Positions 313 to 25,028 of a DNA stretch of 35,721 nt are shown piece after piece. The position numbers were made by a program, and so were the translations under genes. How positions within the stretch are numbered: position 1 is the first letter of the stretch; each line of letters starts with the position of its first letter. The notes below the pieces were generated by a model. That model saw only the letters and a list, made by a program, of their open reading frames with translations, ran no database searches and was not told where the DNA came from. The stretch is from Bacteroidota bacterium (lineage in GTDB: Bacteria; Bacteroidota; Bacteroidia; Bacteroidales; Paludibacteraceae), in contig JAFNAV010000029.1 of NCBI GenBank assembly GCA_017860345.1, positions 1 through 35,721 on the forward strand, given 5' to 3'.

Positions 313-2313
313 TCAACCCAAATCAAACTCTTTCAACCGGCATTCTACAAAAGCTTCTATAGCTTCGTACGAAGCCAGACCTAAATCTCTGTACAGACCA
401 GCCGTAGCTTTATTCCTTTCTTCGGAACGTTGCCAGAACAAACGCTCATCATTACCTAAAAACGGTGCAGCTTCCATTTGCGATTGATGCTTAAGTATGG
501 AGTTTCGCTTCTTTCTTAGTTCTTCTGGACTAATAGGAACTGCCATTTCTATATGATCTATCTCCCACTCTGCCCATGCACCCCTATACATCCATATACG
601 ACAATCCTTAAGCCAGTCCTCTTTACGCAATTCATAAATGGCAGCCAAAGCAGCATCCAGACAGACCTTATGCGTTCCGTGCGGATCGGCCAAGTCGCCG
701 GCCAAATATATCTGGTGAGGTTTAATCTCCTGCAGCAAAGCTATTATTTTCACAATATCCCTGTCAGAAAGATTATCCTTTTGAATTCTGCCCGTTTCGT
801 AAAAAGGAAGTTCGAGAAAATGAACATTTTCACTTTTTATACCTATGTAACGACATGCTGTGCGAGCTTCTTCTTTTCTGATTTGCCCCTTAACAAACAG
901 CACATCCGCAGTATCCAAATCGCCTGTTCTTTTATCTACCGTCAAAAATTTCAATGTTTCTTCGCATTTATCTTCCAATTTTTTATCATTGTTGTTTAAA
1001 GCCTCATTCAAATGCTGAATCAGCGAAACTGTACGAATAACTTCCTCGTCGCCCACAGCAATATTGCCCGACGTCTGATAAGCTACATGAACATCATGCT
1101 TCTGATCAACCAGGCGTTGGAGTGTGCCACCCATAGAAATAACATCATCGTCGGGATGCGGACTGAATACCAAAACACGTTTAGGATAAGGCAATGCCCG
1201 CTCCGGACGGTTTGTATCATCGGCATCAGGCTTTCCACCGGGCCAACCGGTAATGGTGTGTTGCAAATCATTAAATATTCTTATATTCACGTCATAAGCC
1301 GAGCCATAAAGCGACAACAGCTCATCCAATCCATGCTGGTTGTAATCCTTGTTGGTCAGTTTTAAAATAGGCTTCCCTGTTTCGGCACATAGCCATACAA
1401 TAGCACGACGTATCAACTTGTTAGTCCATTCGCACGGACCCACAAGCCAGGGCTGACTAATACGCGTTAACTGTTCGGCAGCCCCGAGGTCAATCACAGC
1501 TGTGGCATTTTTGTGCAGCTGGAGGAATGAAGCCGGAACATTGTCGTCCGTTTTTCCCTGAACCACCTCTTTGATTACTGCCGATTTATTCTCGCCCCAA
1601 GCCAGAAGAACCACCTCGCTGGCATTATTAATAGTAGAAAGTCCGATGGTTATGGCGCTATCAGGCACTTCGGAAAACGAAGAATAAAAACGTCTTAAGT
1701 CGCGGCGCGATTCGTGATCGAGCAACATCAATCTCGTAAGCGTACTTATTTGCGAACCCGGCTCATTATAAGCTATATTGCCCACCAATCCTACGCTTAA
1801 CAAAACCAGATCCAACCCGTCATTTTTGTCTATCAACTCTTCGTATTTATGACAATATTCATATACATTGCTACGATTTACGGAAGAATCGGGCGTTATA
1901 AAATTCTCAGGTTTGATATTTATTTTATCAATCAGATGTTTCCTCAACAGCTTGCCATTGGAATGTCTCTCATCATCGTAAATAGGAAAAAATTCAGATA
2001 CATTAAAAACAATTACTTCCGAAAAGTTCAGATCCTCTTCCTTATGCATTCGCACCAGCTCTTCGTAAACAGCCAGAGGCGAAGAACCTCCTGACAAACC
2101 AAGCACACAAGGCTCGCCCAAATTCTCTTTTTCGCGAATTAATGTTGCAATTTTATTTGCAACGAAAACCGAACCTTCGGTCGAATCTTTGTATATATTA
2201 GTTCGCAGTTTTTCAAATCTCTTCTGCCGTAATCCCTCAATCATATCCGATGAGCGATAATATCTTTCGTGTATCATTTCCAGCGTAATCGCTGAGCTTA
2301 AATCGTATCTCAT
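313..2313 (-). CDS. NagB-like / PIG-L (LmbE) deacetylase fusion protein
   Basis: About 666 aa in two parts. Residues ~40-290 are a sugar-phosphate isomerase (NagB/6-phosphogluconolactonase) fold. Residues ~378-600 are a PIG-L/LmbE zinc de-N-acetylase with SPHPDDD (384-390) and a downstream HGTH zinc ligand. Databases usually name such proteins glucosamine-6-phosphate deaminase. However, the E. coli NagB catalytic residues Asp72, Asp141 and His143 are Ser106, Val177 and Asn179 here (NVSEFF and GLVGNIAYNEP); only the Glu148 equivalent (Glu184) remains. Deamination by this domain is therefore doubtful, while the deacetylase half looks intact. I chose the ATG at 2313 (MRYDLSS) because the longer frame to 2385 would overlap nagB by 47 bp; from 2313 the gap is 25 bp. 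No signal peptide, so cytoplasmic. It is the last gene of the operon. Inferred role: deacetylating an N-acetyl amino sugar next to NagB. Confidence 0.88.
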   Translation of the reverse strand: MRYDLSSAITLEMIHERYYRSSDMIEGLRQKRFEKLRTNIYKDSTEGSVFVANKIATLIREKENLGEPCVLGLSGGSSPLAVYEELVRMHKEEDLNFSEVIVFNVSEFFPIYDDERHSNGKLLRKHLIDKINIKPENFITPDSSVNRSNVYEYCHKYEELIDKNDGLDLVLLSVGLVGNIAYNEPGSQISTLTRLMLLDHESRRDLRRFYSSFSEVPDSAITIGLSTINNASEVVLLAWGENKSAVIKEVVQGKTDDNVPASFLQLHKNATAVIDLGAAEQLTRISQPWLVGPCEWTNKLIRRAIVWLCAETGKPILKLTNKDYNQHGLDELLSLYGSAYDVNIRIFNDLQHTITGWPGGKPDADDTNRPERALPYPKRVLVFSPHPDDDVISMGGTLQRLVDQKHDVHVAYQTSGNIAVGDEEVIRTVSLIQHLNEALNNNDKKLEDKCEETLKFLTVDKRTGDLDTADVLFVKGQIRKEEARTACRYIGIKSENVHFLELPFYETGRIQKDNLSDRDIVKIIALLQEIKPHQIYLAGDLADPHGTHKVCLDAALAAIYELRKEDWLKDCRIWMYRGAWAEWEIDHIEMAVPISPEELRKKRNSILKHQSQMEAAPFLGNDERLFWQRSEERNKATAGLYRDLGLASYEAIEAFVECRLKEFDLG

Positions 2314-2338
2314 ATCTTTGGGTAATAAATAAACAAAT

Positions 2339-3130
2339 TTAAATTTCAGATTTCTCAATATCTTTAAAGTACCGGTATGTACCAACCTTTAATTCGGCAG
2401 TAGCCTCTTCGTCGCATACAATAATTCCTTTCGGATGCAATTGTAAAGCCGTAATGGTCCATAAATGGTTGACTGAGCCTTCCACAGCTTGCTGAAGCGC
2501 GCGTGCCTTATTATATCCCGTAGCCAGTACAAGCACCTCGCGCGAATTCATAACCGTTTCCACACCCACCGTGAGCGCCTGTCGGGGCACCTCGTCGGTG
2601 CGGTTACCAAAGAAGCGTGAATTGGCAATAATTGTATCTTCGGTAAGCGTTTTCACCCTTGTAGTAGACCGGAGAGATGAGCCCGGCTCATTGAAAGCGA
2701 TATGACCATCGGCTCCCACTCCACCCAGAAACAAGTCTATTCCTCCGCAAGCTTTTATTTTTTCTTCGTAAGCCGAACATTCTTGTTGCAAATCAGGCGC
2801 ATTACCATTAAGTATATTTACATTTTCGGGCAAAATATCTATATGCGAGAAAAAATTTTCCCACATAAAAGTATGATAGCTTTGTGGGTGATCTTCAGGT
2901 ATTCCCACATATTCATCCATATTAAAAGTCACCACATATCTAAAAGAAACCCGCCCCTGCTTATATAACTCAATCAGCTTTTTGTAAGTACCCAAAGGCG
3001 TAGAACCAGTGGGCAAGCCAAGTACAAAAGGGTGCGAAGCGGTAGGAGTAGCATTGTTTATCCGGCTTGCTATATAATTAGCCGCCCAGTTTGAAGCACC
3101 TGAAAAATCAGGCTGTATAATTAATCGCAT
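2339..3130 (-). CDS. nagB: Glucosamine-6-phosphate deaminase
   Basis: 263 aa, full family length. It converts glucosamine-6-phosphate to fructose-6-phosphate and ammonia in the cytoplasm. Numbering coincides exactly with E. coli NagB: Asp72 in FNMDEYVG, and Asp141, His143 and Glu148 in [17 protein letters not shown]. Residues of the GlcNAc-6-P allosteric site also appear kept (Ser151, Ser152, Arg158, Lys160, Tyr254), so allosteric activation is plausible. It lies 25 bp before the NagB-like/PIG-L gene and about 106 bp after the DUF5009 membrane protein gene. This is the clearest metabolic anchor for the operon: its end product is an amino sugar entering glycolysis. I see no nagA or GlcNAc kinase in the window. 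Confidence 0.96.
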
Positions 3131-3236: not shown

Positions 3237-4661
3237 TTACGTACGCCAAAACCACCTGATGCGGGTGAAAAACATGGTAACTAAAACCGCTACAGCAGTA
3301 AGTACAACCCCCTGTAAAACTCCCAGACAAGGATTTAAGCTAAAAAAATGAAGCCATGGCGTAATACCGAGCAATCCAAATACAGGCATGATAAATAAAT
3401 CGCCGGCCACGTAAGCAATCATAGGGTTTTGACCCGACATGACTAGAAATTTTGTGGCGCGTACATAGCCATAAAAATCGCAAATGATATTGAAAGCCAG
3501 TAAAGCCAGAAAGGCAAGCCCCGATGTTACAAAGTAATAGCTATAGCTGGGCGGATCTTTCTTGATACCTCCTTCGTAAGCTTCAAAACATAAGCCCAGA
3601 AAGAGTAAATAAGCCCCTGTATAAAAAAGATTACGCCAAAGTTTACGGTTGAACCCAGCCCCCTTACGAAGCAGGAAATAACCAGCAAGCAACAGCACTG
3701 CCGTAATAAGCAAATTGGCAACGAGCAAACGGGTGTAGAGAAAATACAGATTTAGCACAATAACGGTAACTGACAATATCAATAAAAATACGGACAATTT
3801 CCGGTCACCATCCCGGCCTTCGGACTGAGCAGTATTTCTTTTGTTCATCCATGAAGCAAGGTATTCACCGGCAAAACTTCCCGGAATTACAATAAACAGA
3901 TATTTAAGATAAGAGAACTGATACATCCATGGAAATGGCGAGAAGTTTAACAAAGTTTGAGCCCACGAGCCATCAACTGATGACGAAAGCAACAAGCCCA
4001 TTAAACAGAAAAGAACCGCTATACGAGCCAGTGGATTGTTTTTTGTGAAGATATACAATACCGACCCGAAAACGGCCATATTGGCCAACAACAAAATAAT
4101 GATATTGCTCGAATACAAACTCCATGAAGCCCCTCCGGCATAATCTACATGAGTCATCAGCCAAAATGCAAATCCGTACGCCAGCAACTTAATTGCAGTG
4201 TGAATCCATGCAGGCAACTTTAGCGGAATGCGCATAAACATGAGAAAAAGCAAGGCAAAAGCCAACAAAGCCAATCCCCATGAGCGGGCATCCTGCGGTG
4301 AACTAAGCACATAAGGATAAAAATGCTGTATGAAAATGGCAAAAAAAGTGAGTTGCAAACCCCTGAGCAGCGAATCCCAAATCAAGCGATACTTACTTTC
4401 GCCTTTGTCCATTCTTTTCCCTATTGAAAACGGGAATGCAGCCCCCATGGCAAAAAGGAAAAACGGGAAAACCAGATCGACCCAGGTAAGCCCTGAAAGC
4501 GCTGCATTGTAGGCATGTCCCGGAGGTGGCGTTTGGGTGTGATACATCCAGCCCGGTAGAATATCCGGCACCACAGTAGCCGACAGTACCATCGTAATAA
4601 TGGCGTAACCACGCAAAGCATCCAGCGCATAAGCCCGCTGATTAATTATCTGTTTTCCCAT
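3237..4661 (-). CDS. DUF5009 / NagX-like (HGSNAT-related) multipass membrane protein
   Basis: 474 aa with about 10-12 hydrophobic segments and almost no soluble domain. The start RAYALDALRGYAIITMVLS and the segment GLTWVDLVFPFFLFAMG match the COG4299/DUF5009 family, related to human heparan-alpha-glucosaminide N-acetyltransferase (HGSNAT). HGSNAT passes an acetyl group from cytosolic acetyl-CoA across the membrane to a terminal glucosamine, using a His just before the GLT..DLVFP segment; a His (GHAYNAALS) is near that place here, but spacing differs. Bacterial relatives (NagX; also a Tannerella MurNAc transporter, from memory) sit in GlcNAc/MurNAc gene clusters and are thought to bring amino sugars through the inner membrane. 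With nagB downstream, amino-sugar uptake or acetylation is the best inference; I cannot choose between them. It follows the GHL10-like gene by 87 bp. Confidence 0.85.
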   Translation of the reverse strand: MGKQIINQRAYALDALRGYAIITMVLSATVVPDILPGWMYHTQTPPPGHAYNAALSGLTWVDLVFPFFLFAMGAAFPFSIGKRMDKGESKYRLIWDSLLRGLQLTFFAIFIQHFYPYVLSSPQDARSWGLALLAFALLFLMFMRIPLKLPAWIHTAIKLLAYGFAFWLMTHVDYAGGASWSLYSSNIIILLLANMAVFGSVLYIFTKNNPLARIAVLFCLMGLLLSSSVDGSWAQTLLNFSPFPWMYQFSYLKYLFIVIPGSFAGEYLASWMNKRNTAQSEGRDGDRKLSVFLLILSVTVIVLNLYFLYTRLLVANLLITAVLLLAGYFLLRKGAGFNRKLWRNLFYTGAYLLFLGLCFEAYEGGIKKDPPSYSYYFVTSGLAFLALLAFNIICDFYGYVRATKFLVMSGQNPMIAYVAGDLFIMPVFGLLGITPWLHFFSLNPCLGVLQGVVLTAVAVLVTMFFTRIRWFWRT

Positions 4662-4748: not shown

Positions 4749-6104
4749 TTATTTATTTTTTTTCGCACATTTCTTAGCCGGTTTAAGCGCTCCACCGTCT
4801 ATCATTCCTTTTTCTACCTCTTTCCAAAGATTTTTAGTGATGATATGCACAATATCGAACACCATCAATCCATCAGATTCTTTCAGATTCATTGCAATTG
4901 TTTTAGATAATTTTGCAGGGTTTGAATAAAACTGATCTACCAGAATTCCACCCAGAAATTTATTATCTTTTAAAATCGTTCTCAGATGTTTACACGAGCC
5001 TTCGACACAATACCATGTACCCGATTGAGCTTCGCTGTCGGTTTCGTTCCAGATACTGTTGTTGTTTTTACGATATTCCTCAATAGTTATATCGGTATAG
5101 TAGTTTCCGGTCATATAAAAATCGAGCAAATCGCCGTAAGCATAATTCTTATAACCGGGAGTTGCCCAGTCAAAATCCTTACTTGGATCGTATTTATTGC
5201 TGGCAAAGTTTACCCCCACCTCGTAATACGAAGGATACCAGGCACCTGTATACGTTCCGAAAGAGATGTTTTGATTTACCGATTTTATTTCGTTACGAGC
5301 CTGCACGAAGAAATCATAAATATTTTTGGTACGCCACTCCACCCATTTCAGGAAATACTTGCCACGTTCGACCGAATATTTACCATCATTATTTTTTTTC
5401 CACGAAAAAATATCAGCAGGGAAGTTAGTCACTTTTTCACCAATATATTCTTCAAATTTTGTTTTCGACAGGTTCGAGAAATCTGCCGTAATCCCATCGT
5501 ATCTGGCTCTGTCCAGTATAATTCCGTCTAATTTTGGATATTTGCGAACCACTTCTTTCAGTACATTCAGGATATGTTCGCGAAACTCAGGATTAATCGG
5601 GTTTACCATGGCTCCATACTTATGTTTTTCCTCGGTAATGGGAATTATTCCTTTTTCCGGAGTATATACCATGGTAGCCCATTCAGGATACCCCCGGTAA
5701 ATTTGTCCTCTATCAAAATAATTATGACCCGCCACAAACACATTCAGGTTAGCCTGAACTTTCAAACCCAATTCATGGCCTTTTTTTATAAAATAACCCA
5801 GATAGTCAAGATCGCTACTGCGGTTAGCGCCATGCCATTCGAGCATTTCGGGAGCATAGGCGCTTTTATAAAACACCTCACCCGTTATGGGACGAATATC
5901 CACTACCAAATCGGTAAAACCTAATGATTTAAGTTTAGTTACATAGAAATCAATACTATCGGTATTACTGAAGCGAGCAAAATTTGCTTCACCATCAATC
6001 CACATTACTGCTCTTTTAGGCTCGGTCGCTATCTTTTTTTTAGCCGCTTGAACGCTTACCGATACGGCCAATATCATGACCATTAAAAATATAATCTTCT
6101 TCAT
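4749..6104 (-). CDS. Secreted GHL10-like TIM-barrel glycosidase-related protein
   Basis: 451 aa with an SPI signal (MKKIIFLMVMILAVSVSVQA), so exported to the periplasm or beyond. The body looks like the GHL10 (DUF187-type) TIM-barrel fold seen in YngK-like proteins: RAVMWIDGEANFARF near the N terminus, then VVDIRPITGEVFYKS, and DGIILDRARYDGI around residue 200, where Asp/Arg line the barrel end. The C terminus is an unusual Lys/Cys-rich tail (KPAKKCAKKNK). It is clearly paralogous to the lipoprotein at 10620-12038, sharing blocks such as GTYTGAWYPSYYEVGVN, DWATPGYKNYAYGDLLD and LMVFDIVHI. Substrate unknown; GHL10 members are mostly uncharacterised. Gap to the esterase gene upstream is 39 bp. 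Confidence 0.82.
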   Translation of the reverse strand: MKKIIFLMVMILAVSVSVQAAKKKIATEPKRAVMWIDGEANFARFSNTDSIDFYVTKLKSLGFTDLVVDIRPITGEVFYKSAYAPEMLEWHGANRSSDLDYLGYFIKKGHELGLKVQANLNVFVAGHNYFDRGQIYRGYPEWATMVYTPEKGIIPITEEKHKYGAMVNPINPEFREHILNVLKEVVRKYPKLDGIILDRARYDGITADFSNLSKTKFEEYIGEKVTNFPADIFSWKKNNDGKYSVERGKYFLKWVEWRTKNIYDFFVQARNEIKSVNQNISFGTYTGAWYPSYYEVGVNFASNKYDPSKDFDWATPGYKNYAYGDLLDFYMTGNYYTDITIEEYRKNNNSIWNETDSEAQSGTWYCVEGSCKHLRTILKDNKFLGGILVDQFYSNPAKLSKTIAMNLKESDGLMVFDIVHIITKNLWKEVEKGMIDGGALKPAKKCAKKNK

Positions 6105-6143: not shown

Positions 6144-7571
6144 TTATTTTATTACAATACGAAAAGGCGATGCGGGAATCCCGGTGTTGTTATACAGATT
6201 GCCTTCCATATAATTTCGGAAGCAATATCTTAGCTCATGAGGCGATGCTATACTATCGTTCCAAACTTTAACTATATTTGAGCCACCGATAATTTCGGCA
6301 TGCGCATGGAGAAATTTGCCATCGGCGCCAGCAATTTCAAATCCTTTAAGCGCTTCGTTCTCAGGAGTCATGCCATCTTCGCCATATTCAAACTGAACTT
6401 CAACCGTTTTTCCATTCAGTTTGTATGAACTGTAAATTGGCCCGCTATACGGAATTCCATCTCTGCCATAAGTTTTAGCCAAGGCCCAGTATGCCAGGCG
6501 CTCACCTACCTTAATTTTGTAGGGAGGATGAATAAAAATCTCGCTCCCGGCATCGGTAGTTGTTACCATGCCTACGTGCGGCACTTCCTTCATCAGTTCG
6601 AGCTGCGCCTGCCTGAACCATGCCCAGTCCAGTTCGTTTTTTCCTCCCGATTGCCAGGGAGCTATTTGCACATAATAAAAAGGCATATCCGGCGAACGAA
6701 AAAAAGCTCGCCATTGCTCCACCAATGCCGGAAATAGTTTTTTGTACAATGCCGGATTGTTACTATTAGCTTCGCCCTGATACCAGATTACACCTTTTAC
6801 AGGAAATCCTTCCAATGGTTTCACCATCGCGTTGTGTAGCAGGGTTGGAGTTCCGTTGGGGTAGCCAAACTCTTTGTTGCCAAGCACAGATAGATCAACT
6901 TCATCAAAACGCGAAAGAGTTTCTTTGTCCATCCAGGCTTCAATTTTAGAAGCGCTCCATGAGCAATGTACCAAACCCACCGGCACACGCAGCGTTGCCT
7001 GCAATAAGTTTCCGAAGAAATAGGCTGTGGCGCTAAAATCGGCCACTTCTTTTGACGAACTCAGGCTCCAGTGTCCTTCTACATCCTCCCGGGGGGTTGT
7101 ACTCCAAGCATTTTTTACGGTAAATAGCCTCAGTGGACGATTTGAATCGGCCGAAACGATATAAGGTTGCGAGCCAAAAACCGGTTGTCCCCGAAAGCCT
7201 TTTACCGGCATTTCCATGTTAGACTGACCGGAGCAGAACCAAACTTCGCCTACAAGTATGTTTTTCAATTCCAATAATTCCCCATCGGAAATAGAAATAC
7301 TAAACGGACCTCCGGCAGCAGGCGTAGGTACGGTTGCCGACCAATGTCCGGTTGCATTGCTCTTGGTACGAATTGTATTATCGCTCCACGAAGCCTTAAT
7401 TGTTACCGGTTTACCTGCAATTGCTTTACCATGAAAGCGAATTTCGGACTGCTGTTGCACTACCATATTATCGCCCCAAATCGAAGGAAGTATTATTTTG
7501 GCCTGAGCAAAACCTGCTATTAGCAAGCCCGCTATCATCAGTTTTATTTTATACATATCGTTCATTTTCAT
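6144..7571 (-). CDS. Sialate O-acetylesterase-like (SASA/SGNH) esterase
   Basis: 475 aa with an N-terminal signal (MYKIKLMIAGLLIAGFAQA); ATGs at 7571, 7565 and 7556 all precede it. Residues ~25-105 form a small beta domain, followed by the SGNH esterase core. The nucleophile motif is CSGQSNMEMP (Ser117), with WYQGEAN at 263-269 and the catalytic His at 348 in FIHPPYKIKVGERLA. The family removes O-acetyl groups from sialic acids or from plant and microbial glycans. The position two before the His, normally Asp (DIHP), is Phe346 here, so activity may rest on a Ser-His pair or on another acid. It lies only 3 bp after the phosphoesterase gene. No sialidase or sialic acid lyase is nearby, so a general O-deacetylase role on the locus substrate is more likely than sialic acid work. 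Confidence 0.88.
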   Translation of the reverse strand: MKMNDMYKIKLMIAGLLIAGFAQAKIILPSIWGDNMVVQQQSEIRFHGKAIAGKPVTIKASWSDNTIRTKSNATGHWSATVPTPAAGGPFSISISDGELLELKNILVGEVWFCSGQSNMEMPVKGFRGQPVFGSQPYIVSADSNRPLRLFTVKNAWSTTPREDVEGHWSLSSSKEVADFSATAYFFGNLLQATLRVPVGLVHCSWSASKIEAWMDKETLSRFDEVDLSVLGNKEFGYPNGTPTLLHNAMVKPLEGFPVKGVIWYQGEANSNNPALYKKLFPALVEQWRAFFRSPDMPFYYVQIAPWQSGGKNELDWAWFRQAQLELMKEVPHVGMVTTTDAGSEIFIHPPYKIKVGERLAYWALAKTYGRDGIPYSGPIYSSYKLNGKTVEVQFEYGEDGMTPENEALKGFEIAGADGKFLHAHAEIIGGSNIVKVWNDSIASPHELRYCFRNYMEGNLYNNTGIPASPFRIVIK

Positions 7572-7574
7572 GTT

Positions 7575-9017
7575 TTATATTGTACTTACATATACCTTTC
7601 CGAAACGGTCGGTCACTCTGATTTCAATTTTGGAGTTTTTGTTTTGTGGAGTCGCTCTGAATAAATGATCGGTTGGATTGATTGTAATCCAGTCGTACTT
7701 CATTTGTTGCCTGTCGGCACAACGTTGTTCAGCCAGCGGATCATTACCTGAATAGTGGGTCATTTCTCCTCGGGTTATACCATTTTCAACCCATTCTACT
7801 TTCCAGTTTTTGTCCCAGTTCCATACATTCGCTATTACGTCGTCGGGAAATTCCGGTGAAGAACCCACGGGGTAAACGCGCATTTGATATTCTTTGGGAA
7901 ATCCCGCACTTTTATAATACCATTTTACAGCCGCACCATCTACCTCGTATACACCGTAGCCGCGGGGAGTTCCATCCAGCCCTATATCACTACGCCACCA
8001 GGTTCCGCAAACTGCCCCGGTGATGTGCTCCATCAGTTTAGGCGAATAAACCAGATTGCGGTTGTAGTGCATGTGCCCCGAAATAATATGCGCATTAAAC
8101 GGCTTAAGTATTTCATGAAAGGCACCCGCATTGACCATCTGGTCGGCAATGACGCTGTAATTATACTCAAAAGGCATTTGTTGCTCCTGCAACCGGGAAG
8201 GGATATGCATTATCACAAAAACAGGAGAGTTTTTATCAACACCGGCAAGATCCTGTTCGAGCCAACGGAATATTTTTTCGTCGATGTAACCCATGTAAAA
8301 ATACTCCCTGCCCAGAAAGAAGTTGTTATTCAACACAATGTAATGAGCTTTCCCTTTATTGAAAGAATAGTACGTGGGACCAAAGTATTTTTCAAAGGTT
8401 TTGTACGATGTTTCAAAACTGCGTCCGTAATAATCCATATCATGATTTCCGATAGCTCTGTAAACCGGAATATCCAAAACGCTTACGGCTTTGATATAAT
8501 CGGGAAACAATGCCGGAGTATCCCCCACAATATCGCCACAATCGACACCAAAAACATCCTGAGCAGCATACTCTTGTCTGATCAGGTTTATACAGTCGGG
8601 CAACATACGTTTGTAGGTATCCAGACAGTCATTGTCAGTCAGCTGCACATCCGCTTGAGCCAGAAACACGTGCTTCGTATCGTCTTTAGGGTTCTTCAGG
8701 AGTTCAAAGTTATACACTTTAGTTCCGGGATACACTCTATGGTAAAAAGCAGGAATTGAGTTTTCTACTTTAGTCAGATAACCTGCTGGAGTGGAGATAA
8801 AGACAAAAGAAGGACAGGTTGAAATCAGTTTATAGCTACCATCCGTATTTGTACGTACACAGTTAAACCCGTCGCTTACCATTACATTGGCAATTGCCCG
8901 ACCCTCACAAGTTACTTTACCACGCAGTACATTCTGTTGCTGCGCCGACAAGCTTAAGGTTAGCAACAAGTAAAAAACACCGAGCGTACTTATTCTATAT
9001 CGAGAGAAAAATTTCAT
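7575..9017 (-). CDS. Secreted calcineurin-like phosphoesterase (three-domain Bacteroidetes type)
   Basis: 480 aa. An SPI signal (to about SLSAQ, residue 25) is followed by a small beta domain (~30-107, MetallophosN-like), a calcineurin-type metallophosphoesterase core (~115-330) and a C-terminal beta domain (~345-480, MetallophosC-like). Metal-site blocks are AQADVQ (Asp123; Gln125 replaces the usual His of DxH), GDIVGD (161-166), GNHD (190-193), MHIP and GHMH. The fold cleaves phosphomono- or phosphodiesters with two metals; the substrate of this subfamily is not known to me. Its start overlaps the stop of the ADP-ribosylglycohydrolase gene (ATGA, 9014-9017), suggesting translational coupling. 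With the NAGPA gene, it gives the locus two enzymes aimed at sugar-phosphate esters. Confidence 0.9.
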   Translation of the reverse strand: MKFFSRYRISTLGVFYLLLTLSLSAQQQNVLRGKVTCEGRAIANVMVSDGFNCVRTNTDGSYKLISTCPSFVFISTPAGYLTKVENSIPAFYHRVYPGTKVYNFELLKNPKDDTKHVFLAQADVQLTDNDCLDTYKRMLPDCINLIRQEYAAQDVFGVDCGDIVGDTPALFPDYIKAVSVLDIPVYRAIGNHDMDYYGRSFETSYKTFEKYFGPTYYSFNKGKAHYIVLNNNFFLGREYFYMGYIDEKIFRWLEQDLAGVDKNSPVFVIMHIPSRLQEQQMPFEYNYSVIADQMVNAGAFHEILKPFNAHIISGHMHYNRNLVYSPKLMEHITGAVCGTWWRSDIGLDGTPRGYGVYEVDGAAVKWYYKSAGFPKEYQMRVYPVGSSPEFPDDVIANVWNWDKNWKVEWVENGITRGEMTHYSGNDPLAEQRCADRQQMKYDWITINPTDHLFRATPQNKNSKIEIRVTDRFGKVYVSTI

Positions 9018-16706: not shown

Positions 16707-19700
16707 TTAGAATGTGAGGGTAATACCTGTCATAAATGTTTTTTGTTGAGGATAGTAGCCATTGTTTACCCGTGGCGATTCAGGGTCAATTCCTTCGGGC
16801 AATCCTGATAAGGTGAACAAGTTAGACCCCTGTACAAAAATCCTCGTTCTGGCAATACCCACTTTTCGGGTTAAAGAAGCCGGAAGGCTATAGCCAATCT
16901 GAGCCGATTTTAAACGAATGTATTTAGCATCCCGAAACCAGAATGTAGAAGCCAATCCATTATTGTTATGTGGGTCGTTAATGGTTAATCGCGGATATGT
17001 ACCATCGGTATTATCCGGACGCCAGGCGTTTTCAACCAGATAAACAGGCGAGTTAGCTCCTCCGTTAAATGCTTTGGTGTAAATCGTGTTATCGTCATAA
17101 CCATTATAGTAAGTACCAGTAAGAGATACTTCGCAAACAGCTGCACCTGTAAACTGAAGGCTAAAATCGAATCCTCGCCAGTCGCCCGAAAGGTTAAGAC
17201 CGGCAGTAAGTTCCGGACGATTTGATTTTCCGACAAAAGCTTTGTCCTGATAATCAACAATTCCATCGCCATTCAGGTCTTCGTACTTAATATCGCCCGG
17301 ACGGGGTCTTTCGCCAAACGGCCATGGCGAATTATCAATTTCCTCTTCGGACTGGAACAAACCATCGGCTACCCAACCATACAGTGTACCAACCGGCTTA
17401 CCAGTGATTTTTGCGTAATCGGGCGTATTGGGGCTATCAGGATAACGTAACCAACGGCTTTTGGCATACGTAAGGTTTAGCCCAGCACCAAAGTTAAATT
17501 TATTTTTTCCTGTTCCAAAACTGCTTTTATGGGTAAGTGTTACTTCTATACCTTTAATATCCATTCTTTCGTAATTTTCGTAAGTAGGATAATATCCACC
17601 CATAGAAGGTGCATAGTTGGAGCCCATAGCAGTAAGGATGTCGTATGTAAAACTGTAGAATGCATCAAACTCCACACCCAAAAGGCCTTTCCACATATTC
17701 AGGTCGAAGCCACCATTGTACGACAAGGTACGCTCCCAGGTCAGATTAGGATTTGCATATCCTGTTGTGTATACCGAGTTTACCAGCTCTCCTCCAATCG
17801 TTGTTGAGTTATCTCTGAAGTCGTAAGTATTCAGGTAAGCATAAGCCGGAACGCCATCGTTGCCCAGCATACCTACCGAACCGCGGATTTTAAAATTATC
17901 AACATAGCTCAACCCATCCATAAAGTCTTCGCCACTAACTCTCCATCCTACCGAAAGTGAAGGGAAGAAACCCCAGCGCTTTCCGCTTACATTGCCGGAG
18001 AATTTGTACGACCCATCGTAACGTCCGGTAAATTCGGCCAGATATTTATCGGCATAATCATATTTCAGTCTGAAAACGTATCCCAAACTGCGCGATTGAT
18101 TACTTGCACCGGCTATCGGATTATTGTCGGGCTGAGCCAATCCAAGCTCAGGCAACGATTCAAAAATAGGATTGGTACTTTTACCGTAAGCAGCAAAGCT
18201 ATTAGTTTTATAATCACGCACTTCACTTAATGCCATAGCGTCAACATGGTGTTGTTCGCCAATCGTTGTTGCATAATTCACACTGGCTTGTCCAACCAGT
18301 TGTGTATATTCAGACACACCCTCGCCCAATGAATAATATGTATTTCCACGAGCATCAATCACCTTATCAAAAGTAATATCGGAGGTAGAAGTATCGGGTA
18401 TTCTGGCCATATTTACATAATAGGGTGTACTTAAGTTTTTACTTCTCGACGTGGAGAAATCGTAAGAACCGGTAGCTTTTAAATTCAAACCTTTTACTCC
18501 GGGAACATCATATTGCAAGCTGAAGTTAGACTGGATGTCATGACTATAATTATTGAACTTGCCCGAGTTATTCAAAGCGGCAACAGGGCTGTTAGGCTGA
18601 TTGCTGGCGTTGGGAGTAGCCACATACATACCGTTATAAGTAACCGGCAAATAAGGACGGCTGTTTACCGCCTGATAAACTATTGTCATCCATGGGTCGC
18701 CATCGGCTCCCGATGTACCAGCCTCGTATCCGGGCCTTTGCGAGTTTGCAAGCTGTCCGGCTAAGCCAATGCTGAATTTCCAGTTTTTGGCAATATTGGC
18801 ATCAATATTAGCACGTACATTATAACGTTCATAGGTGTAGTTTTTGATATTACCAACCTGATCCATGTAGCCCATCGATACAAAGTATTTGATATCTTCA
18901 GTACCACCTTGTACCGTTACGCTGTGTTGCTGATTATGGCCAACACCGAATATTTGGTCGAGCCAGTCGGTGTTTCCCCAACCGTCGGTATCGTCTCCGT
19001 TGGTCATCTTGGCAATTTGCGATTTGGTAAAAACAGGTGAACTGCCATCCATTTCCAAAGCCTTATTGTAATACAAAGCGTAGCTCGGACCATCCAGAAA
19101 TTTAGGGAAATTGGCGTTCTGAGAAATCCCGTACGAACCATTGTATGTAATCTGCGATTTGCCTACATGTCCTTTTTTAGTGGTAACAATAATAACCCCA
19201 CCGGCACCTTTAAGCCCGTAAACAGCTGCTGCTGCCCCGTCTTTTAGTACCGAAATAGATTCAATATCATTAGGATCAATATCGTTGATTGACCGCGGCA
19301 TACCATCAACAATATACGTAACTCCATAAATAGAGCCGCGGATGGTTAATGCAGCCTGATCGGCTCCCGGCTGACCCGAAGACTGTACCGACTGAATACC
19401 GGCTACTCTACCTCCAAGTAAACTTGATATATTGGTAGAAGGAGTTTTAAGCAACTCATCGCCTTTTATCTGAGAAACAGAACCTGTTAGCGTACTTTTT
19501 TTCTGAATGCCATAACCTACCACCATTACTTCATTGAGTAATTCGTTGTCTTCTTCCATAACAACGGTAAGTTCTTTGATAGCACCCACGGTGATTGTTT
19601 GTTTTTTGTAGCCTAAAAACGAAAACGTTAATACAGGATTAGTTGCAGAAACTTTCAGCGAAAACAGACCGTTATTATCAGTAACAGTTCCGATGGTAGT

Positions 19701-19868
19701 TCCTTTCACTACAACACTTAGCCCTACAAGAGGGTTACCTTCCGTGTCTTTTACCTTTCCACGGATATTTGTCTGTGCAAATGCAGAAAATCCACAGCAA
19801 AACATCCACAGCATAACAAGGTATTTCAAGCCCCGAAAGCGCAGTTTTGATAAGTTAGTTTTTTCCAT
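16707..19868 (-). CDS. susC-like: SusC/RagA family TonB-dependent outer-membrane transporter
   Basis: 1053 aa. Signal peptide to about FSAFAQ; CarboxypepD_reg domain (~33-110, RGKVKDTEGNPLVGLSVVVK); plug domain (~115-235) opening with LNEVMVVGYGIQKKSTLTGS and holding SIYGVTYIVDGMPRSINDI and DIESISVLKDGAAAAVYG; then a 22-strand beta barrel ending in an aromatic residue (ITLTF). There is no STN domain, so no anti-sigma signalling arm. It imports oligosaccharide fragments bound by the SusD partner into the periplasm using TonB energy. The 114 bp to the AGE gene upstream show no convincing promoter, so co-transcription from the promoter near 22330 is likely but not certain. Confidence 0.97.
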   Translation of the reverse strand: MEKTNLSKLRFRGLKYLVMLWMFCCGFSAFAQTNIRGKVKDTEGNPLVGLSVVVKGTTIGTVTDNNGLFSLKVSATNPVLTFSFLGYKKQTITVGAIKELTVVMEEDNELLNEVMVVGYGIQKKSTLTGSVSQIKGDELLKTPSTNISSLLGGRVAGIQSVQSSGQPGADQAALTIRGSIYGVTYIVDGMPRSINDIDPNDIESISVLKDGAAAAVYGLKGAGGVIIVTTKKGHVGKSQITYNGSYGISQNANFPKFLDGPSYALYYNKALEMDGSSPVFTKSQIAKMTNGDDTDGWGNTDWLDQIFGVGHNQQHSVTVQGGTEDIKYFVSMGYMDQVGNIKNYTYERYNVRANIDANIAKNWKFSIGLAGQLANSQRPGYEAGTSGADGDPWMTIVYQAVNSRPYLPVTYNGMYVATPNASNQPNSPVAALNNSGKFNNYSHDIQSNFSLQYDVPGVKGLNLKATGSYDFSTSRSKNLSTPYYVNMARIPDTSTSDITFDKVIDARGNTYYSLGEGVSEYTQLVGQASVNYATTIGEQHHVDAMALSEVRDYKTNSFAAYGKSTNPIFESLPELGLAQPDNNPIAGASNQSRSLGYVFRLKYDYADKYLAEFTGRYDGSYKFSGNVSGKRWGFFPSLSVGWRVSGEDFMDGLSYVDNFKIRGSVGMLGNDGVPAYAYLNTYDFRDNSTTIGGELVNSVYTTGYANPNLTWERTLSYNGGFDLNMWKGLLGVEFDAFYSFTYDILTAMGSNYAPSMGGYYPTYENYERMDIKGIEVTLTHKSSFGTGKNKFNFGAGLNLTYAKSRWLRYPDSPNTPDYAKITGKPVGTLYGWVADGLFQSEEEIDNSPWPFGERPRPGDIKYEDLNGDGIVDYQDKAFVGKSNRPELTAGLNLSGDWRGFDFSLQFTGAAVCEVSLTGTYYNGYDDNTIYTKAFNGGANSPVYLVENAWRPDNTDGTYPRLTINDPHNNNGLASTFWFRDAKYIRLKSAQIGYSLPASLTRKVGIARTRIFVQGSNLFTLSGLPEGIDPESPRVNNGYYPQQKTFMTGITLTF

Positions 19869-19982: not shown

Positions 19983-21143
19983 TTAAATCTTTTCGAGTAT
20001 TTTCCAGCATTGATACATGCCCCGGGGCACATGGAAGCAACCCTTCCACTTGCCACCTTTCAAATTAAGCAGCACCTCACCCTGACGATTCAGGTATCCA
20101 AACCATTCGGGATGTTCATGGTCTTTGAAATGCGACCATGTATATTCATGAACGCGTTCAAACCACTCCAAACATCCGGCCGACCCTGTAAGCTGATAAC
20201 CCTTAATCAAGGTAATCAGAGTTTCCACATGCACCCACCACAGTTTTTGATCCCATTCGAGCTGCTGAGGCGGGTTTCCATTTCTGTCGAGGAAGTAAAA
20301 AATTCCTCCGTATTGTTTATCCCAGCCATACTCTACCATTTTCAGAGCTATATCTGTAGCTTTCTGAATCAGTTTTGGCCTGTTGAGCCTTACGCCTAAA
20401 TCCATCATAAACCACATTGCCTCAATTGAGTGGCCGGGATTTACCAGTCGTCCGTCAAAGCTATCGGACAAATTTCCGTTCATATCCACGTTTTCAACTA
20501 CAATTCCCAGTTCAGGCTTGTAGAAAACATCCATTACTTCGTGTATACAAACTTCAATGGTGTTTATCAAAAAATCTTCATCCAGCAAATGCTCTATTTC
20601 CAGAGTAAGGTTACAGAGTATCATTGGCAGTGCAAAGCCTTTCAAATCGCGGGTACCTGGCACAGCCTTGTTCCATTTCCCCTTGGGATTTTCAGTTTTC
20701 GATAATATTTTCCGGAAAGTAGTCTGAGCAATGTACTCGTAATCCTTATTCCCGGTGGCCAAACTAAGCTGGCCAAAAGCCATGGTAGCAAAAGTGTACG
20801 AAAAAATATTGTAGGGTTCCACCAGCGGAGCCCCATCTCTTGTTAGCGAAAAATACCAGTTATAATCTCCATCATGACCATATTTTCGCAAAAACTCTGC
20901 ACCCTGAATAGCGCAGTCGAGCCACTCTTGCTTTTTCTCTACTTTGTTATAAAGCATGGCAAACATCCATACTTCGCGCCCCTGCAACCAAACAAATTTA
21001 TCTGTGTCGTAAACTTTTCCTTCCCTGTCAAGACATGTAAAATATCCTCCAAAATCGCGATCCTGAGAGTTGTCAAGCCAGAATGGGAGAACATTTCCCA
21101 GCAATTCTTCTTTATACTGTTCAGCTAAACCTTTAAAATCCAT
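19983..21143 (-). CDS. N-acylglucosamine 2-epimerase (AGE/RnBP family)
   Basis: 386 aa, full length for the (alpha/alpha)6-barrel AGE family, no signal peptide, so cytoplasmic. Family members interconvert N-acetylglucosamine and N-acetylmannosamine. The family residues are present: Arg56 in VWLQGREVWMF, His238 in LVNPGHSIEAMWF and His371 in KGCFHVPRGMYQCW, the two His acting as acid/base. In Bacteroides the AGE enzyme (NanE) works in sialic acid use, but no aldolase/lyase or sialidase is present here, so ManNAc from another source is a reasonable inference. Cellobiose or mannose epimerases share the fold and cannot be excluded. It lies between the DUF4434 gene (48 bp) and susC (114 bp). Confidence 0.9.
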   Translation of the reverse strand: MDFKGLAEQYKEELLGNVLPFWLDNSQDRDFGGYFTCLDREGKVYDTDKFVWLQGREVWMFAMLYNKVEKKQEWLDCAIQGAEFLRKYGHDGDYNWYFSLTRDGAPLVEPYNIFSYTFATMAFGQLSLATGNKDYEYIAQTTFRKILSKTENPKGKWNKAVPGTRDLKGFALPMILCNLTLEIEHLLDEDFLINTIEVCIHEVMDVFYKPELGIVVENVDMNGNLSDSFDGRLVNPGHSIEAMWFMMDLGVRLNRPKLIQKATDIALKMVEYGWDKQYGGIFYFLDRNGNPPQQLEWDQKLWWVHVETLITLIKGYQLTGSAGCLEWFERVHEYTWSHFKDHEHPEWFGYLNRQGEVLLNLKGGKWKGCFHVPRGMYQCWKILEKI

Positions 21144-21191: not shown

Positions 21192-22145
21192 TTATTTTAT
21201 TGTTTTTAAATACTCTTTATACCTATCATAAAGATGCCCGGCCTGCAAATAGGCCGACTGCGGACTCATAAAATGCGAAAACTCAAATGTAATCGCGTGC
21301 TCTATTCCGGCTTCGGCGGCCAGCGCAAGTTTAAGTCTGAGCTTTTCCCACTTGATGGGCAAAAACTTAATGGGCATATCGCGGTCAAATGTTTCAGAAT
21401 TTGTCCAACACTCCATACCATATTTATCGCACAATCTTTTATTTACCTTCAAAAAATCTGTCAGCTCGTCGTAATCCACATGACCATCCTGAAACGCCAC
21501 AATATCCACAGCACCCTGTATGCCCCTGAATATATTGTCCCATTCTGCTTCGTGGTCGGTTACACTTATTCCTTCAGCTTTATTGGTATCGGCAGTATAC
21601 TGACTGATATTTTTCTTTCCGTCGATATAAGGCGATATCAACACCGGAAGCGCGCCCGAAACCTGTTTACAATACCTGCCCAGCGTTGAAAACATTTCTA
21701 TAATCTTACCATTGTTCCGGCTGCATTCCTGCGACAGATACCAACCCGAGAACGATTGATAATGTCCGTATTTTTGCCAAACTTCATCAATCAGCTTTTT
21801 ATTGACATTCACCTCTTTTTCGTAGTTTCCATCAATCCAGAAATCAGGATCGACCCAGTAGCGACCTGAGTCGTAAAGCCCGAAATAGAACTGCATGCCG
21901 TATTTGTCGCTCAGTTGTAAAAACAGTTCGACCAAATCAACCGGAGGCGTAAAACAACGCTCCTCGTTGGTAAGAACTACAGAAGAAAACGTTTGCCAAC
22001 GCTTGTAACCTGAGCGGATAAGTACCACCATTTCTATTCCGACCTCTTTCATATAGGCGAAATCCTGATCCCACTCAGCTACTCCCCAATTTTGATGAGG
22101 AATATCATGACTTATTTCATCCAGAAAAGTTGCTTTAAATTTAAT
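21192..22145 (-). CDS. DUF4434 TIM-barrel putative glycosidase, apparent ATT start
   Basis: 317 aa if started at the ATT codon 22143-22145; the first ATG (22052) would give 286 aa. The 31 codons before that ATG are open, and their translation (IKFKATFLDEISHDIPHQNW, then GVAEWDQDFAY) runs straight into the domain and matches the family N terminus as I remember it (MKFKATFLDEI..). The frame is closed by TAA at 22161-22163, with no ATG, GTG or TTG between. The fold is a glycosidase-like barrel with candidate acids in SGWYLSQECSR and CWTNSETFDRDMP, and a closing FEFSHFMSPQSAYLQAGHLY. No signal peptide, so cytoplasmic; substrate unknown. First gene of the minus operon, 48 bp before AGE. A sequencing error turning ATG into ATT is the alternative. 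Confidence 0.85.
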   Translation of the reverse strand: MKFKATFLDEISHDIPHQNWGVAEWDQDFAYMKEVGIEMVVLIRSGYKRWQTFSSVVLTNEERCFTPPVDLVELFLQLSDKYGMQFYFGLYDSGRYWVDPDFWIDGNYEKEVNVNKKLIDEVWQKYGHYQSFSGWYLSQECSRNNGKIIEMFSTLGRYCKQVSGALPVLISPYIDGKKNISQYTADTNKAEGISVTDHEAEWDNIFRGIQGAVDIVAFQDGHVDYDELTDFLKVNKRLCDKYGMECWTNSETFDRDMPIKFLPIKWEKLRLKLALAAEAGIEHAITFEFSHFMSPQSAYLQAGHLYDRYKEYLKTIK

Positions 22146-22160
22146 TGTAAAATTTTTTAG

Positions 22161-22356: not shown

Positions 22357-22479
22357 GCTAAATATGAAATATTTTTTGAAAATATTGCATTATTTTATAT
22401 TTTAATTAAATATGCCTTTACAACAAGCATACATATAAAGCTAAAAATCAAAAGATTATATATATTAATAAAAATTTAT

Positions 22480-22487
22480 TACATTTG
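22480..22487 (+). promoter_or_regulatory. Candidate -7 box for the ROK-MFS operon
   Basis: TACATTTG fits TAnnTTTG and lies 26 nt before the ATG at 22514, giving a short leader. No clear -33 TTG is seen at the expected spacing. Confidence 0.5.
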
Positions 22488-22513
22488 CGACCAAGTTCTT
22501 AAAACATACCCAT

Positions 22514-23722
22514 ATGAAGCATACATTTATTGAAGAAATTGAGCTCGGTTCAAAAAATGCAATACTTAAGATTAATATTATAAAGTATTACATAAACAAT
22601 GGCACCAATACCTTGGCCGAACTTGGCAAAGAAATGGATTTGAGTGTTCCCACAGTCACAAAGTTGGTAGGCGAATTAATTGAAGAAGGTTACGTAATTG
22701 ATTTCGGAAAACAGGAAACCACCGGAGGTCGCAGACCTAATATATATGGCATCAATCCCGACTCGGGATATTTTGTCGGTGTGGATATTAAAAAGTTCAG
22801 AATCAACATAGCCGTCATCAATTTTCAGGGTGATACAATCGATTCAAAATTAAGCATTCCTTTCAGTTATGAAAACACTCAGGAAAGTTTTAATCACCTA
22901 TGCAATATTATAAAGCAGTTTATCGACAACCTGACCATTCCCAAAAACAAGATATTGAGCATCGGAATAAATATGTCGGGCCGGGTAAATACCGAAACAG
23001 GCCACAGTTACAGCTCCTATTTCTTTAGTGAGCAGCCTCTGACCGAAACCTTTCAGGAAAGGCTCGGGTTTCATGTTACAATCGACAACGACTCCCGCTC
23101 CATGGCTTATGGAGAGTTTATGAACGGAGGTGTTAACGCAGAAAAAAACATCCTGTTCGTAAACGTAAGTTGGGGATTAGGGCTTGGCATTATTACTGAC
23201 GGGAAGCTGTATTACGGAAAATCAGGATTTGCGGGCGAATTCGGGCATATTATTGCTTTTGAAAACGACGTGATATGCCATTGCGGAAAAAAAGGCTGTT
23301 TAGAAACCGGCGCATCGGGTTCGTACATCTACCGGCGATTTATGGAGAAAGTGGCCGAAGGCAACTCTACCATTCTCGAAGACCGTATAAAAAAAGGGGA
23401 AACCATAATTCAGGAAGATATTTTGAATGCCGCCTTGCACGAAGATATACTGGCTATTGAATTGATTGAAGAAGTAGGTACATCGTTAGGAAAGCATATT
23501 GCAGGACTGATTAACCTGTTTAATCCGGAACTGGTAATTATAGGTGGAGCAGTAGCTGTTACCGGCGATTACCTATTGTTACCTATAAAAAGTGCTGTAA
23601 AAAAATACTCATTAAATCTGGTAAGTAAAGACACAACAATTAAACTATCAAAACTGGGAGACAAAGCAGGAGTTATCGGAGCCTGCATGTTGGCCCGCAG
23701 TAAAATGCTCGGGCTGATATAA
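22514..23722 (+). CDS. ROK-family transcriptional regulator (NagC/XylR-like)
   Basis: 402 aa. The N terminus (~15-70) is a winged helix-turn-helix (ILKINIIKYYINNGTNTLAE, then SVPTVTKLVGELIEEGYV). The rest is a ROK sugar-kinase fold with the zinc motif CHCGKKGCLE and the sugar-site blocks IDNDSRSMAYGE and GEFGHI. The ATP phosphate-binding motif DxGGT is VDIKKF here, so kinase activity is unlikely and the protein is a sugar-responsive DNA-binding regulator, most likely a repressor relieved by a locus product such as an amino sugar. It is divergent from the utilisation operon, the usual place for its regulator, and 28 bp before the MFS gene, so both are probably co-transcribed. No hybrid two-component or SusR-type regulator is present in the locus. 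Confidence 0.92.
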   Translation: MKHTFIEEIELGSKNAILKINIIKYYINNGTNTLAELGKEMDLSVPTVTKLVGELIEEGYVIDFGKQETTGGRRPNIYGINPDSGYFVGVDIKKFRINIAVINFQGDTIDSKLSIPFSYENTQESFNHLCNIIKQFIDNLTIPKNKILSIGINMSGRVNTETGHSYSSYFFSEQPLTETFQERLGFHVTIDNDSRSMAYGEFMNGGVNAEKNILFVNVSWGLGLGIITDGKLYYGKSGFAGEFGHIIAFENDVICHCGKKGCLETGASGSYIYRRFMEKVAEGNSTILEDRIKKGETIIQEDILNAALHEDILAIELIEEVGTSLGKHIAGLINLFNPELVIIGGAVAVTGDYLLLPIKSAVKKYSLNLVSKDTTIKLSKLGDKAGVIGACMLARSKMLGLI

Positions 23723-23750
23723 CACTCCCCTGTAAAAAAACAGAAAAAAA

Positions 23751-25028
23751 ATGGAAACAGAAAAAATCTCTTCGAACAAACGGCATCCGGCTACATGGGT
23801 GCCATCTGTTTATTTCGCAATGGGCTTGCCCTTTGTAGCGCTATCAACCGCATCGGCTCTGATGTTTAAAAACTTAGGAATTTCCGATTCTAAAATCGCA
23901 TTCTGGACATCATTAATCATGATTCCGTGGACATTAAAACCAATCTGGAGTCCGCTGCTTGAAATGTTTAAAACAAAGAAACATTTTGTTGTAGCCACAC
24001 AGTTAATTACGGGTATCACCTTTGCACTGATTGCTTTCTCGTTACATTTGCCTGATTTTTTTACATACGCCATCGCTTTTATGGCCATAATCGGATTTAG
24101 CGGAGCCACCCACGACATTGCCACCGTAGGCATATACCTGAACGAACTATCGCCCGAAGATCAAGCCAAATATGTGGGTTGGCAAGGCGCATTCTACAAC
24201 ATAGCCAAGATATTATCGGGAGGAGCGCTGGTATATATTGCCGGCGAACTCGAAAAACGTATCGGCATAGTCAATGCATGGACGACAGTAATGAGCATTT
24301 ACGGTATAATTATGGTATTGTTATCAGTTTATCATTTACGCATACTACCGTCGGGCGGTTCGGCACACCAGGTCAAATCGTTTAAAGAAGGCATGCTAAC
24401 CCTCAAGGATGTAGCTGTTACCTTTTTTGAAAAAAAAGGCATTTTCCTGAGTATACTTTTTGTGATTTTTTATCGTTTTGCCGAAGGATTCGCCATCAAG
24501 ATAGCTCCGCTGTTTTTCAAAGCCACCCGCGAAAGCGGAGGTCTGGGCTTGTCCACTTCGGAAATAGGAATGATATACGGTATATTCGGAGCTGCAGCGT
24601 TTGTACTTGGTTCAATCGTTGCCGGCTATTTCACCTCATCGCAGGGTCTGAAGAAATCAATCCTTATTTTATGCGCTGCCTTCAATATTCCATTTATCAT
24701 GTATGCTTTATTGGCTTGGTTTCAGCCGGCCAATCTTTATATTATTTCAGCAGCTGTAATCCTTGAATATTTCGGATATGGATTTGGATTTGTAGGACTA
24801 ATTCTTTATATCATGCAACAAATATCACCCGGAAAATACAAAACTGCCCACTACGCATTTGCCGACGGTATCATGGCACTTGGGTTTATGCTGCCCTCCA
24901 TGATAAGCGGTTTTTTGAGCGATATGGTAGGATATAAAACATTTTTCATCTTCGTACTTATGGCTACTATTCCCTCCTTTTTAGTAACAGTATTAGCACC
25001 GTTTCCACATACAGAGACAAAAGAATAA
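23751..25028 (+). CDS. AmpG-like major facilitator superfamily transporter
   Basis: 425 aa, about 12 hydrophobic helices. The N terminus WVPSVYFAMGLPFVALSTAS and segment SPLLEMFKTKKHFVVATQL resemble the PAT/AmpG group of the MFS, which carries muropeptides or small sugars with protons into the cytoplasm; FSGATHDIATVGIYLNELSPEDQAKYVGWQ (cut in two here: FSGATHDIATVG, IYLNELSPEDQAKYVGWQ) is typical of it. In Bacteroidetes such genes often sit in amino-sugar or mannoside loci, so the exact cargo is open. It follows the ROK regulator by 28 bp and ends before a strong terminator. Together with the DUF5009 protein it gives the locus two possible inner-membrane import routes. Confidence 0.88.
   Translation: METEKISSNKRHPATWVPSVYFAMGLPFVALSTASALMFKNLGISDSKIAFWTSLIMIPWTLKPIWSPLLEMFKTKKHFVVATQLITGITFALIAFSLHLPDFFTYAIAFMAIIGFSGATHDIATVGIYLNELSPEDQAKYVGWQGAFYNIAKILSGGALVYIAGELEKRIGIVNAWTTVMSIYGIIMVLLSVYHLRILPSGGSAHQVKSFKEGMLTLKDVAVTFFEKKGIFLSILFVIFYRFAEGFAIKIAPLFFKATRESGGLGLSTSEIGMIYGIFGAAAFVLGSIVAGYFTSSQGLKKSILILCAAFNIPFIMYALLAWFQPANLYIISAAVILEYFGYGFGFVGLILYIMQQISPGKYKTAHYAFADGIMALGFMLPSMISGFLSDMVGYKTFFIFVLMATIPSFLVTVLAPFPHTETKE

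Follow-up and report, generated by a model that had tools for sequence, protein, structure and literature searches.

The window analysed here (the whole stretch of 35,721 nucleotides; G000:C7:1-35721, a contig of a 3.27 Mb Bacteroidota assembly, 86 % complete in 113 contigs) carries a Sus-type locus at positions 313–25028. This locus was interpreted from its genes, with a probability of roughly 0.6, as a system for an N-acetylhexosamine (HexNAc)-rich glycan and a variant of a conserved Bacteroidota polysaccharide utilization locus (PUL) family. The amino-sugar target is supported by a predicted N-acyl-D-glucosamine 2-epimerase (AGE), by a nagB gene pair that looks dedicated to the locus, and by GH20, GH89 or NAGPA genes in relatives. 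As far as our searches reach, the substrate of this locus family is not settled in the literature; among the papers listed by searches on family names, none dealt with this gene set, and DUF4434, DUF4985 and DUF5018 were absent from those listed.

Genes were identified by open reading frame (ORF) calls and by Pfam and NCBIfam scans against curated cut-offs, the Pfam scan covering 16 locus proteins and four flank proteins. The locus contains:

313–2313 (-), NagB-PIG-L (LmbE) fusion, 666 aa (NF002557/PRK02122, 975 bits, cut-off 384)
2339–3130 (-), NagB, glucosamine-6-phosphate deaminase (TIGR00502, 411 bits, cut-off 237)
3237–4661 (-), DUF5009 multi-pass membrane protein, putative NagX/HGSNAT-like acetyltransferase (PF16401, 228 bits)
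4749–6104 (-), GHL10a, GHL10+DUF4985 barrel (PF02638, 72 bits; PF16373, 107 bits)
6144–7571 (-), SASA/SGNH carbohydrate O-acetylesterase, predicted secreted (PF03629, 76 bits; PDB 9ega, 4e-81)
7575–9017 (-), MetallophosN/C calcineurin-like phosphoesterase, predicted secreted (PF16371, PF00149, PF16370)
9014–10600 (-), ADP-ribosylglycohydrolase-fold protein with a C-terminal extension, predicted secreted (PF03747, 97 bits)
10620–12038 (-), GHL10b, GHL10+DUF4985 barrel, probable lipoprotein (PF02638, 90 bits; PF16373, 67 bits)
12051–13079 (-), NAGPA phosphodiester-glycosidase domain, probable lipoprotein (PF09992, 104 bits, cut-off 25)
13343–15022 (-), DUF5018 lipoprotein in the position of a surface glycan-binding protein (SGBP)/SusE (PF16410, 376 bits; lipobox)
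15044–16696 (-), SusD (PF07980, 211 bits)
16707–19868 (-), SusC TonB-dependent transporter (TIGR04056, 950 bits)
19983–21143 (-), AGE, no signal peptide (NF052547, 726 bits, cut-off 600)
21192–22145 (-), DUF4434 barrel (PF14488, 224 bits)
22514–23722 (+), ROK regulator (helix-turn-helix plus ROK), divergent from the operon (PF00480, 197 bits; HTH_24)
23751–25028 (+), major facilitator superfamily (MFS) importer, distant AmpG relative (TIGR00901, 124 bits, below the cut-off of 350)

SusC and SusD are adjacent and accompanied by co-directional glycan enzymes, as in a SusC/SusD polysaccharide utilization locus. The start of NagB-PIG-L was taken as the ATG at 2313 (the mechanical ORF begins at 2385), and that of the ADP-ribosylglycohydrolase-fold gene as the ATG at 10600 (mechanical ORF from 10717). 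Every component that the original prediction had named was confirmed in its place by the ORF, Pfam and NCBIfam scans; the DUF5009 protein, the ROK regulator, the AmpG-like MFS protein and the DUF4985 domains lie in the same interval and had not been listed. Outside the locus, a 946-aa ORF at 29891–32731 reads, by sequence appearance, like a TonB-dependent receptor.

The gene order recurs in two Bacteroidales metagenome-assembled genomes, and the grouping is therefore not due to chance. Locus L003 (JAATGT010000061.1) repeats the order from DUF4434 to NagB-PIG-L, while L002 (MKRS01000370.1, a 9.5 kb contig) repeats that from DUF5018 to DUF5009, minus GHL10a, which is absent between SASA and DUF5009; the proteins of both were 71–85 % identical to those of the window. 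The ROK and MFS genes fall outside this comparison, because the L003 stretch and the L002 contig end before them. More distant loci were sought through DUF4985, which was uncommon: it occurred in 17 of 393 genomes of the order and 8 of 395 of the phylum (counts that both include the window genome and overlap in G059 and G165), in 3 of 38 of one genus, and in one of 14 control genomes, Bacteroides ihuae. All DUF4985 places from the order and phylum samples were used, save a 24-bit fragment in G280; those of G782 and G808, from the one-genus sample, were left out. Excluding the window, L002 and L003, this gave 32 loci in 21 genomes, 18 of which (14 genomes) contained both SusC and SusD. Their ORFs were annotated by BLAST against window and partner proteins, most partners being Pfam-checked in one copy.

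Among the 18 SusCD loci, the core comprised DUF5018 (13 loci), AGE (12), ROK (12), an FAD oxidoreductase (11), DUF4434 (10) and MetallophosN/C (10). DUF5009 (5), GH20 (4), SASA (3) and GH97 (2) were less common, and GH89, a GH33-like gene, GH28, a DHDPS/NanA-like gene, ADP-ribosylglycohydrolase and NagB-PIG-L occurred once each. NAGPA was identified in 5 loci by BLAST, or 6 counting G337 by Pfam. With NAGPA in 6 and ADP-ribosylglycohydrolase in 1 of the 18, neither defines the system; on these counts both are optional modules, with the barrels, AGE and the phosphoesterase nearer the core. The synteny proposed as a check across Bacteroidales was seen for the order in L003 and, GHL10a apart, in L002; NAGPA and ADP-ribosylglycohydrolase were mostly absent from the related loci. 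The added modules with a HexNAc link were GH20 (4), GH89 (1) and NAGPA (6); outside G059 the GH20 matches were at 25–29 % identity, and one GH20 copy was Pfam-checked.

The absence of a classical glycosidase, noted in the original prediction, stood for the window, where none of the 16 locus proteins was assigned by Pfam to the catalytic domain of any numbered CAZy glycoside hydrolase (GH) family. It did not stand for the locus family: one or more of six probed classical GH types was present in 6 of the 18 SusCD loci (in G355:C9a on a 26 % match only) and none of them in 12, and other GHs may sit among the unmatched ORFs of related loci. Gene fusions were found as well. L007 joins GHL10-DUF4985 and MetallophosN/C in one protein, L019 has a SASA and GHL10-DUF4985 fusion (a second such fusion was identified in L021 by BLAST), and L005 has one of MetallophosN/C with the FAD oxidoreductase; the fusions in L007, L019 and L005 provide independent evidence for one common pathway.

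Among the enzymes of amino-sugar metabolism, AGE surpassed its equivalog cut-off. A second nagB/nagB-PIG-L pair lies at G000:C64:12419-15292, and for this reason the pair in the window looks dedicated to the locus, to judge from gene content; in G643, one copy of the fusion is inside the locus and one elsewhere. The amino-sugar target of the original prediction was borne out by AGE, by this second pair and by the GH20, GH89 and NAGPA genes of some relatives. NagA had no match at E<=0.001 in the window genome, using a model that matched 14 of 14 control genomes (above cut-off in 7), and the PIG-L domain of the fusion may act as a deacetylase. That the fusion replaces NagA was not demonstrated by co-occurrence: of 22 genomes, 9 had the fusion without an above-cut-off NagA, 6 had both, 5 had NagA only and 2 had neither (Fisher p = 0.36). 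The interval separating the divergently oriented DUF4434 and ROK genes holds an AT-rich palindrome (22364–22390), a possible ROK operator. It had no clear counterpart in 10 related regions, the best match being 15 of 18 positions, which was equalled by 8 of 200 shuffles; the pattern was built from the window itself, making the window's own high score circular.

Both GHL10 barrels exceeded the PF02638 cut-off of 27.9 bits, and both carry a DUF4985 domain. They probably cut the glycan chain, judging by domain and sequence. Since 12 of the 18 SusCD loci had none of the six probed GH types and the barrels show glycosidase-type folds (in weak models), it is plausible, as the original prediction proposed, that barrels of this locus represent new glycosidase families. 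A profile of 34 GHL10-DUF4985 sequences, mostly unfused and chosen from 47 aligned, matched Cwp19 (PDB 5oq2, 1.4e-20), the DUF4015-like 4s1a (1.1e-5) and GH156 (0.0017) among 21 matches at E<=10. A report of starch as the substrate of the GHL10 protein DogH (PMC9967864) cautions against deducing a substrate from family membership.

The first of these matches relates to salvage of peptidoglycan or denuded glycan strands, an attractive explanation in which the MFS protein would be AmpG and the barrels would resemble Cwp19 or the GHL10 protein DigH. Cwp19 is a GHL10 peptidoglycan lytic transglycosylase, and DigH is described as cutting denuded strands (PMC6016235, PMC12288456). The G224 locus is bordered by convergent SpoIID, AmpG-like and NamZ genes (L004, 5583–10023), and in L018, 7153–17516 (G313:C15), a 1178-aa GHL10-DUF4985 protein adjoins an Amidase_3 protein; a 1323-aa protein nearby appeared amidase-like by eye, with no confirmation by Pfam at E<=1e-5. 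However, the window barrels differ from Cwp19 in their extra DUF4985 domain and in lacking a counterpart of Asp196, proposed as its catalytic residue (PMC5765458); all 47 aligned sequences have Arg, Tyr or Phe at this position. NamZ and Amidase_3 each occurred in 1 of the 32 loci (one probe each), the MFS protein fell below the AmpG cut-off, and no N-acetylmuramic acid gene was recognised among the locus proteins by Pfam or NCBIfam. Salvage was set aside as very unlikely, given the missing catalytic Asp and peptidoglycan neighbours seen once each.

The match to GH156, an inverting sialidase (PDB 6rzd/6s00), was weak; the barrels share its LDxxR(Y/F) motif. Asp198 and Arg201 (GHL10a numbering) were invariant in the 47 sequences, and Arg201/Arg234 of the barrels aligns with GH156 Arg202, which helps to bind the sialic acid carboxylate (PMC6811678). 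This agrees with a locus for sialoglycans or other nonulosonic-acid glycans, where AGE would follow an N-acetylneuraminic acid (Neu5Ac) lyase, SASA would be a sialate O-acetylesterase and ROK would be NanR. Such a reading has the best literature support: BT0433 of B. thetaiotaomicron, a ROK regulator named NanR, has 11 orthologues across 11 Bacteroides genomes, and its predicted regulon is labelled 'Sialic acid; N-acetylglucosamine' (PMC3878776), a prediction that also favours an amino-sugar glycan in general; it was likened to the window ROK by name. BT0451-BT0461 has been called an N-glycan PUL (PMC7531118). SASA matched 9ega, named sialate O-acetylesterase, but also the carbohydrate esterase FI8 (2.3e-77). 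In G059:C5 (L007/L008), sialidase-like, GH20, NAGPA, DHDPS/NanA-like and divergent AGE genes stand in one locus with two SASA genes and GHL10. Yet a search of the window genome with one NanA-like query gave no Neu5Ac lyase at E<=1e-20, an absence left uncertain by 86 % completeness; only 4 of 22 genomes had a match to it. An in-locus sialidase was found in 1 of 18 loci, and B. thetaiotaomicron is reported to have sialidases and no Neu5Ac catabolic genes (PMC5583593). Of the GH156 Asp14/His134 pair and Arg129/Arg202/Asn346 triad, only Arg202 was alignable with the barrels (model pLDDT, the per-residue confidence score, of 57); 4s1a carries the same Arg, so that Arg201 is no mark of a sialidase, only a lead. 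A sialoglycan substrate was considered rather unlikely.

The DUF4434 barrel matched PDB 4h41, which is BT_0435 of B. thetaiotaomicron, deposited as a putative alpha-L-fucosidase; the L003 copy was 55–57 % identical to BT_0435 and 81 % to the window copy. Codon 22143–22145 of the window gene is ATT where L003 has its ATG start, and the mechanical ORF begins 31 codons late; starting from the first ATG would remove a strongly conserved N-terminal stretch. The ATT may be a rare start, a mutation or an assembly error.

The original prediction had favoured a phosphate-bridged glycan, and this part fared worse. Such a substrate would be a polymer like wall teichoic acid, with its N-acetylglucosamine (GlcNAc)-1-P/N-acetylmannosamine (ManNAc) linkage unit, or a HexNAc-1-phosphate capsule, depolymerised by NAGPA and the phosphoesterase; AGE would handle ManNAc, and SASA the O-acetyl groups. 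Both NAGPA and MetallophosN/C carry signal peptides and positions conserved in homologues, those of MetallophosN/C (D123, Q125, D162, N191, H192, H271, H315 and H317) being kept in at least 95 % of 15 sequences; D123, D124, D339 and D341 of the ADP-ribosylglycohydrolase were likewise kept in 4 sequences. NAGPA looks like a surface lipoprotein and would thus meet intact polymer. It is the sole NAGPA match in the window genome, and across the 22 genomes, chosen for DUF4985, 8 of 37 NAGPA matches were in-locus, against a rough expectation of ~1 % estimated from locus and genome length. PF09992 is shared with animal NAGPA, the uncovering enzyme, whose PDB entries (6pku/6pki/6pkg/6pky) matched at ~5e-6; Slr0280 and a DUF2233 protein matched more closely, and the distant window protein is a bacterial probable lipoprotein with an activity predicted from its domain. 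However, NAGPA was absent from 12 of the 18 SusCD loci, and 5 of these 12 have MetallophosN/C (G165, G224, G352, G359:C18 and G377:C20), so that the phosphoesterase does not necessarily act on a glycosyl phosphate. Pfam and NCBIfam picked out nothing among the locus proteins for the catabolism of glycerol- or ribitol-phosphate. With only the phosphoesterase common (10 of 18), the case for a phosphate bridge is weak and not general, and a phosphate-linked polymer was considered rather unlikely. More doubtful still was the full proposal that GHL10-DUF4985 and DUF4434 are new glycosidase families which, with surface NAGPA and MetallophosN/C, work at the cell surface to dismantle a polymer linked through HexNAc-1-phosphate, no classical GH being needed, and that the system is present in part in B. 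thetaiotaomicron.

Localisation was judged from signal peptides by eye and a simple lipobox pattern. By eye, all 9 NAGPA copies had a lipobox-like sequence at the end of the signal, and the script flagged 6 of the 9; the GHL10b signal of the window ended likewise by eye, the script flagging the L003 copy and not the window copy. Plain signal peptides without a lipobox were seen on GHL10a, SASA, MetallophosN/C and the ADP-ribosylglycohydrolase of the window, and none on AGE or the window DUF4434, several relatives of which have RR-type signals. From this a surface-then-periplasm order of the enzymes was inferred. For a HexNAc-rich glycan, the ROK regulator would sense an amino sugar; the surface lipoproteins SusD, DUF5018, GHL10b and NAGPA would bind the polymer, GHL10b making the first cuts and NAGPA removing alpha-HexNAc-1-phosphate (or related alpha-HexNAc) caps. 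SusC would import the oligomers, from which periplasmic SASA, GHL10a, MetallophosN/C and the ADP-ribosylglycohydrolase-fold protein would strip acetyl, phosphate-type and other groups, cutting the chain to small units. DUF5009 would acetylate free glucosamine residues, the MFS protein would import the products, AGE would convert ManNAc to GlcNAc, and NagB-PIG-L with NagB would deacetylate and deaminate hexosamine phosphate.

Several observations weigh against this interpretation. It is drawn from genes, whose content, order, recurrence, fusions and signal-peptide types were read directly from sequence. Catalysis by GHL10-DUF4985 is a prediction, and the Cwp19 Asp196 position is Arg in 25 of the 47 sequences, Tyr in 21, Phe in 1 and Asp in none. 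DUF5009 scored 32 bits against the NagX model (NF046061, cut-off 480) and ROK 198 bits against NagC (NF047937, cut-off 650), and the MFS protein fell short of AmpG as given above. Locus ends were fixed by a 6 kb chaining rule, and 14 of the 32 GHL10-DUF4985 loci, some on short contigs, have no SusC+SusD pair. The core counts include weak matches (FAD oxidoreductase at 26–27 % in three loci, ROK at 25 % in one, DUF4434 at 22 % in one), while AGE is missing from 6 of the 18 SusCD loci and is just 37 % identical in G059. A lipobox on the GHL10a-type protein of L007 indicates that the surface/periplasm split is not uniform. Finally, some related loci contain GH97 and GH28, which to our knowledge are not HexNAc enzymes.

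Comparison with B. thetaiotaomicron was possible through published annotations. A table restricted to regulated genes lists BT0446-49 as DUF5009, family 10 GH, calcineurin phosphoesterase C-term and family 10 GH, BT0451-54 as including SusD, a TonB receptor and a sugar-porter MFS, and BT0438-40 as GH89-SusC-SusD (PMC10434189); the presence of NAGPA, ADP-ribosylglycohydrolase or NagB-PIG-L in B. thetaiotaomicron cannot be read from it. The window combines DUF5009, GHL10, MetallophosC, GHL10, SusD and SusC as in the BT0446-BT0454 type, a likeness of gene content only; across BT0433-BT0454 the sequence match is BT_0435 alone, the remaining likeness being of published names and not alignments. The neighbouring BT0438, together with the GH89 (NAGLU) gene of the G165 locus and the weak NagX similarity of DUF5009, could suggest a heparosan or heparan-like alpha-glucosamine glycan, with DUF5009 acting as HGSNAT and GH89-type removal of alpha-GlcNAc. 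This was most improbable: GH89 occurred in 1 of 18 loci, the NagX score was below cut-off, and no uronate enzyme, lyase or sulfatase was recognised among the locus proteins by Pfam or NCBIfam. BT0439 has been observed on galacto-oligosaccharides (GOS) and on human milk oligosaccharides (HMO) (PMC5238430), and the N-glycan label for BT0451-BT0461 sits uneasily both with an 'unknown' substrate and with a phosphoglycan.

B. thetaiotaomicron, the best-studied gut Bacteroides, is reported to possess orphan operons that are active in the animal and whose food is not known (PMC6989115). Taken as part of a HexNAc-related PUL family, the locus described here would link an environmental bacterium to these operons. 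Candidates singled out by the core genes, by the fusions and by the probable surface/periplasm split are GHL10a, GHL10b, MetallophosN/C, DUF4434 and the FAD oxidoreductase, proteins from which new CAZy families and the identity of the substrate could emerge.

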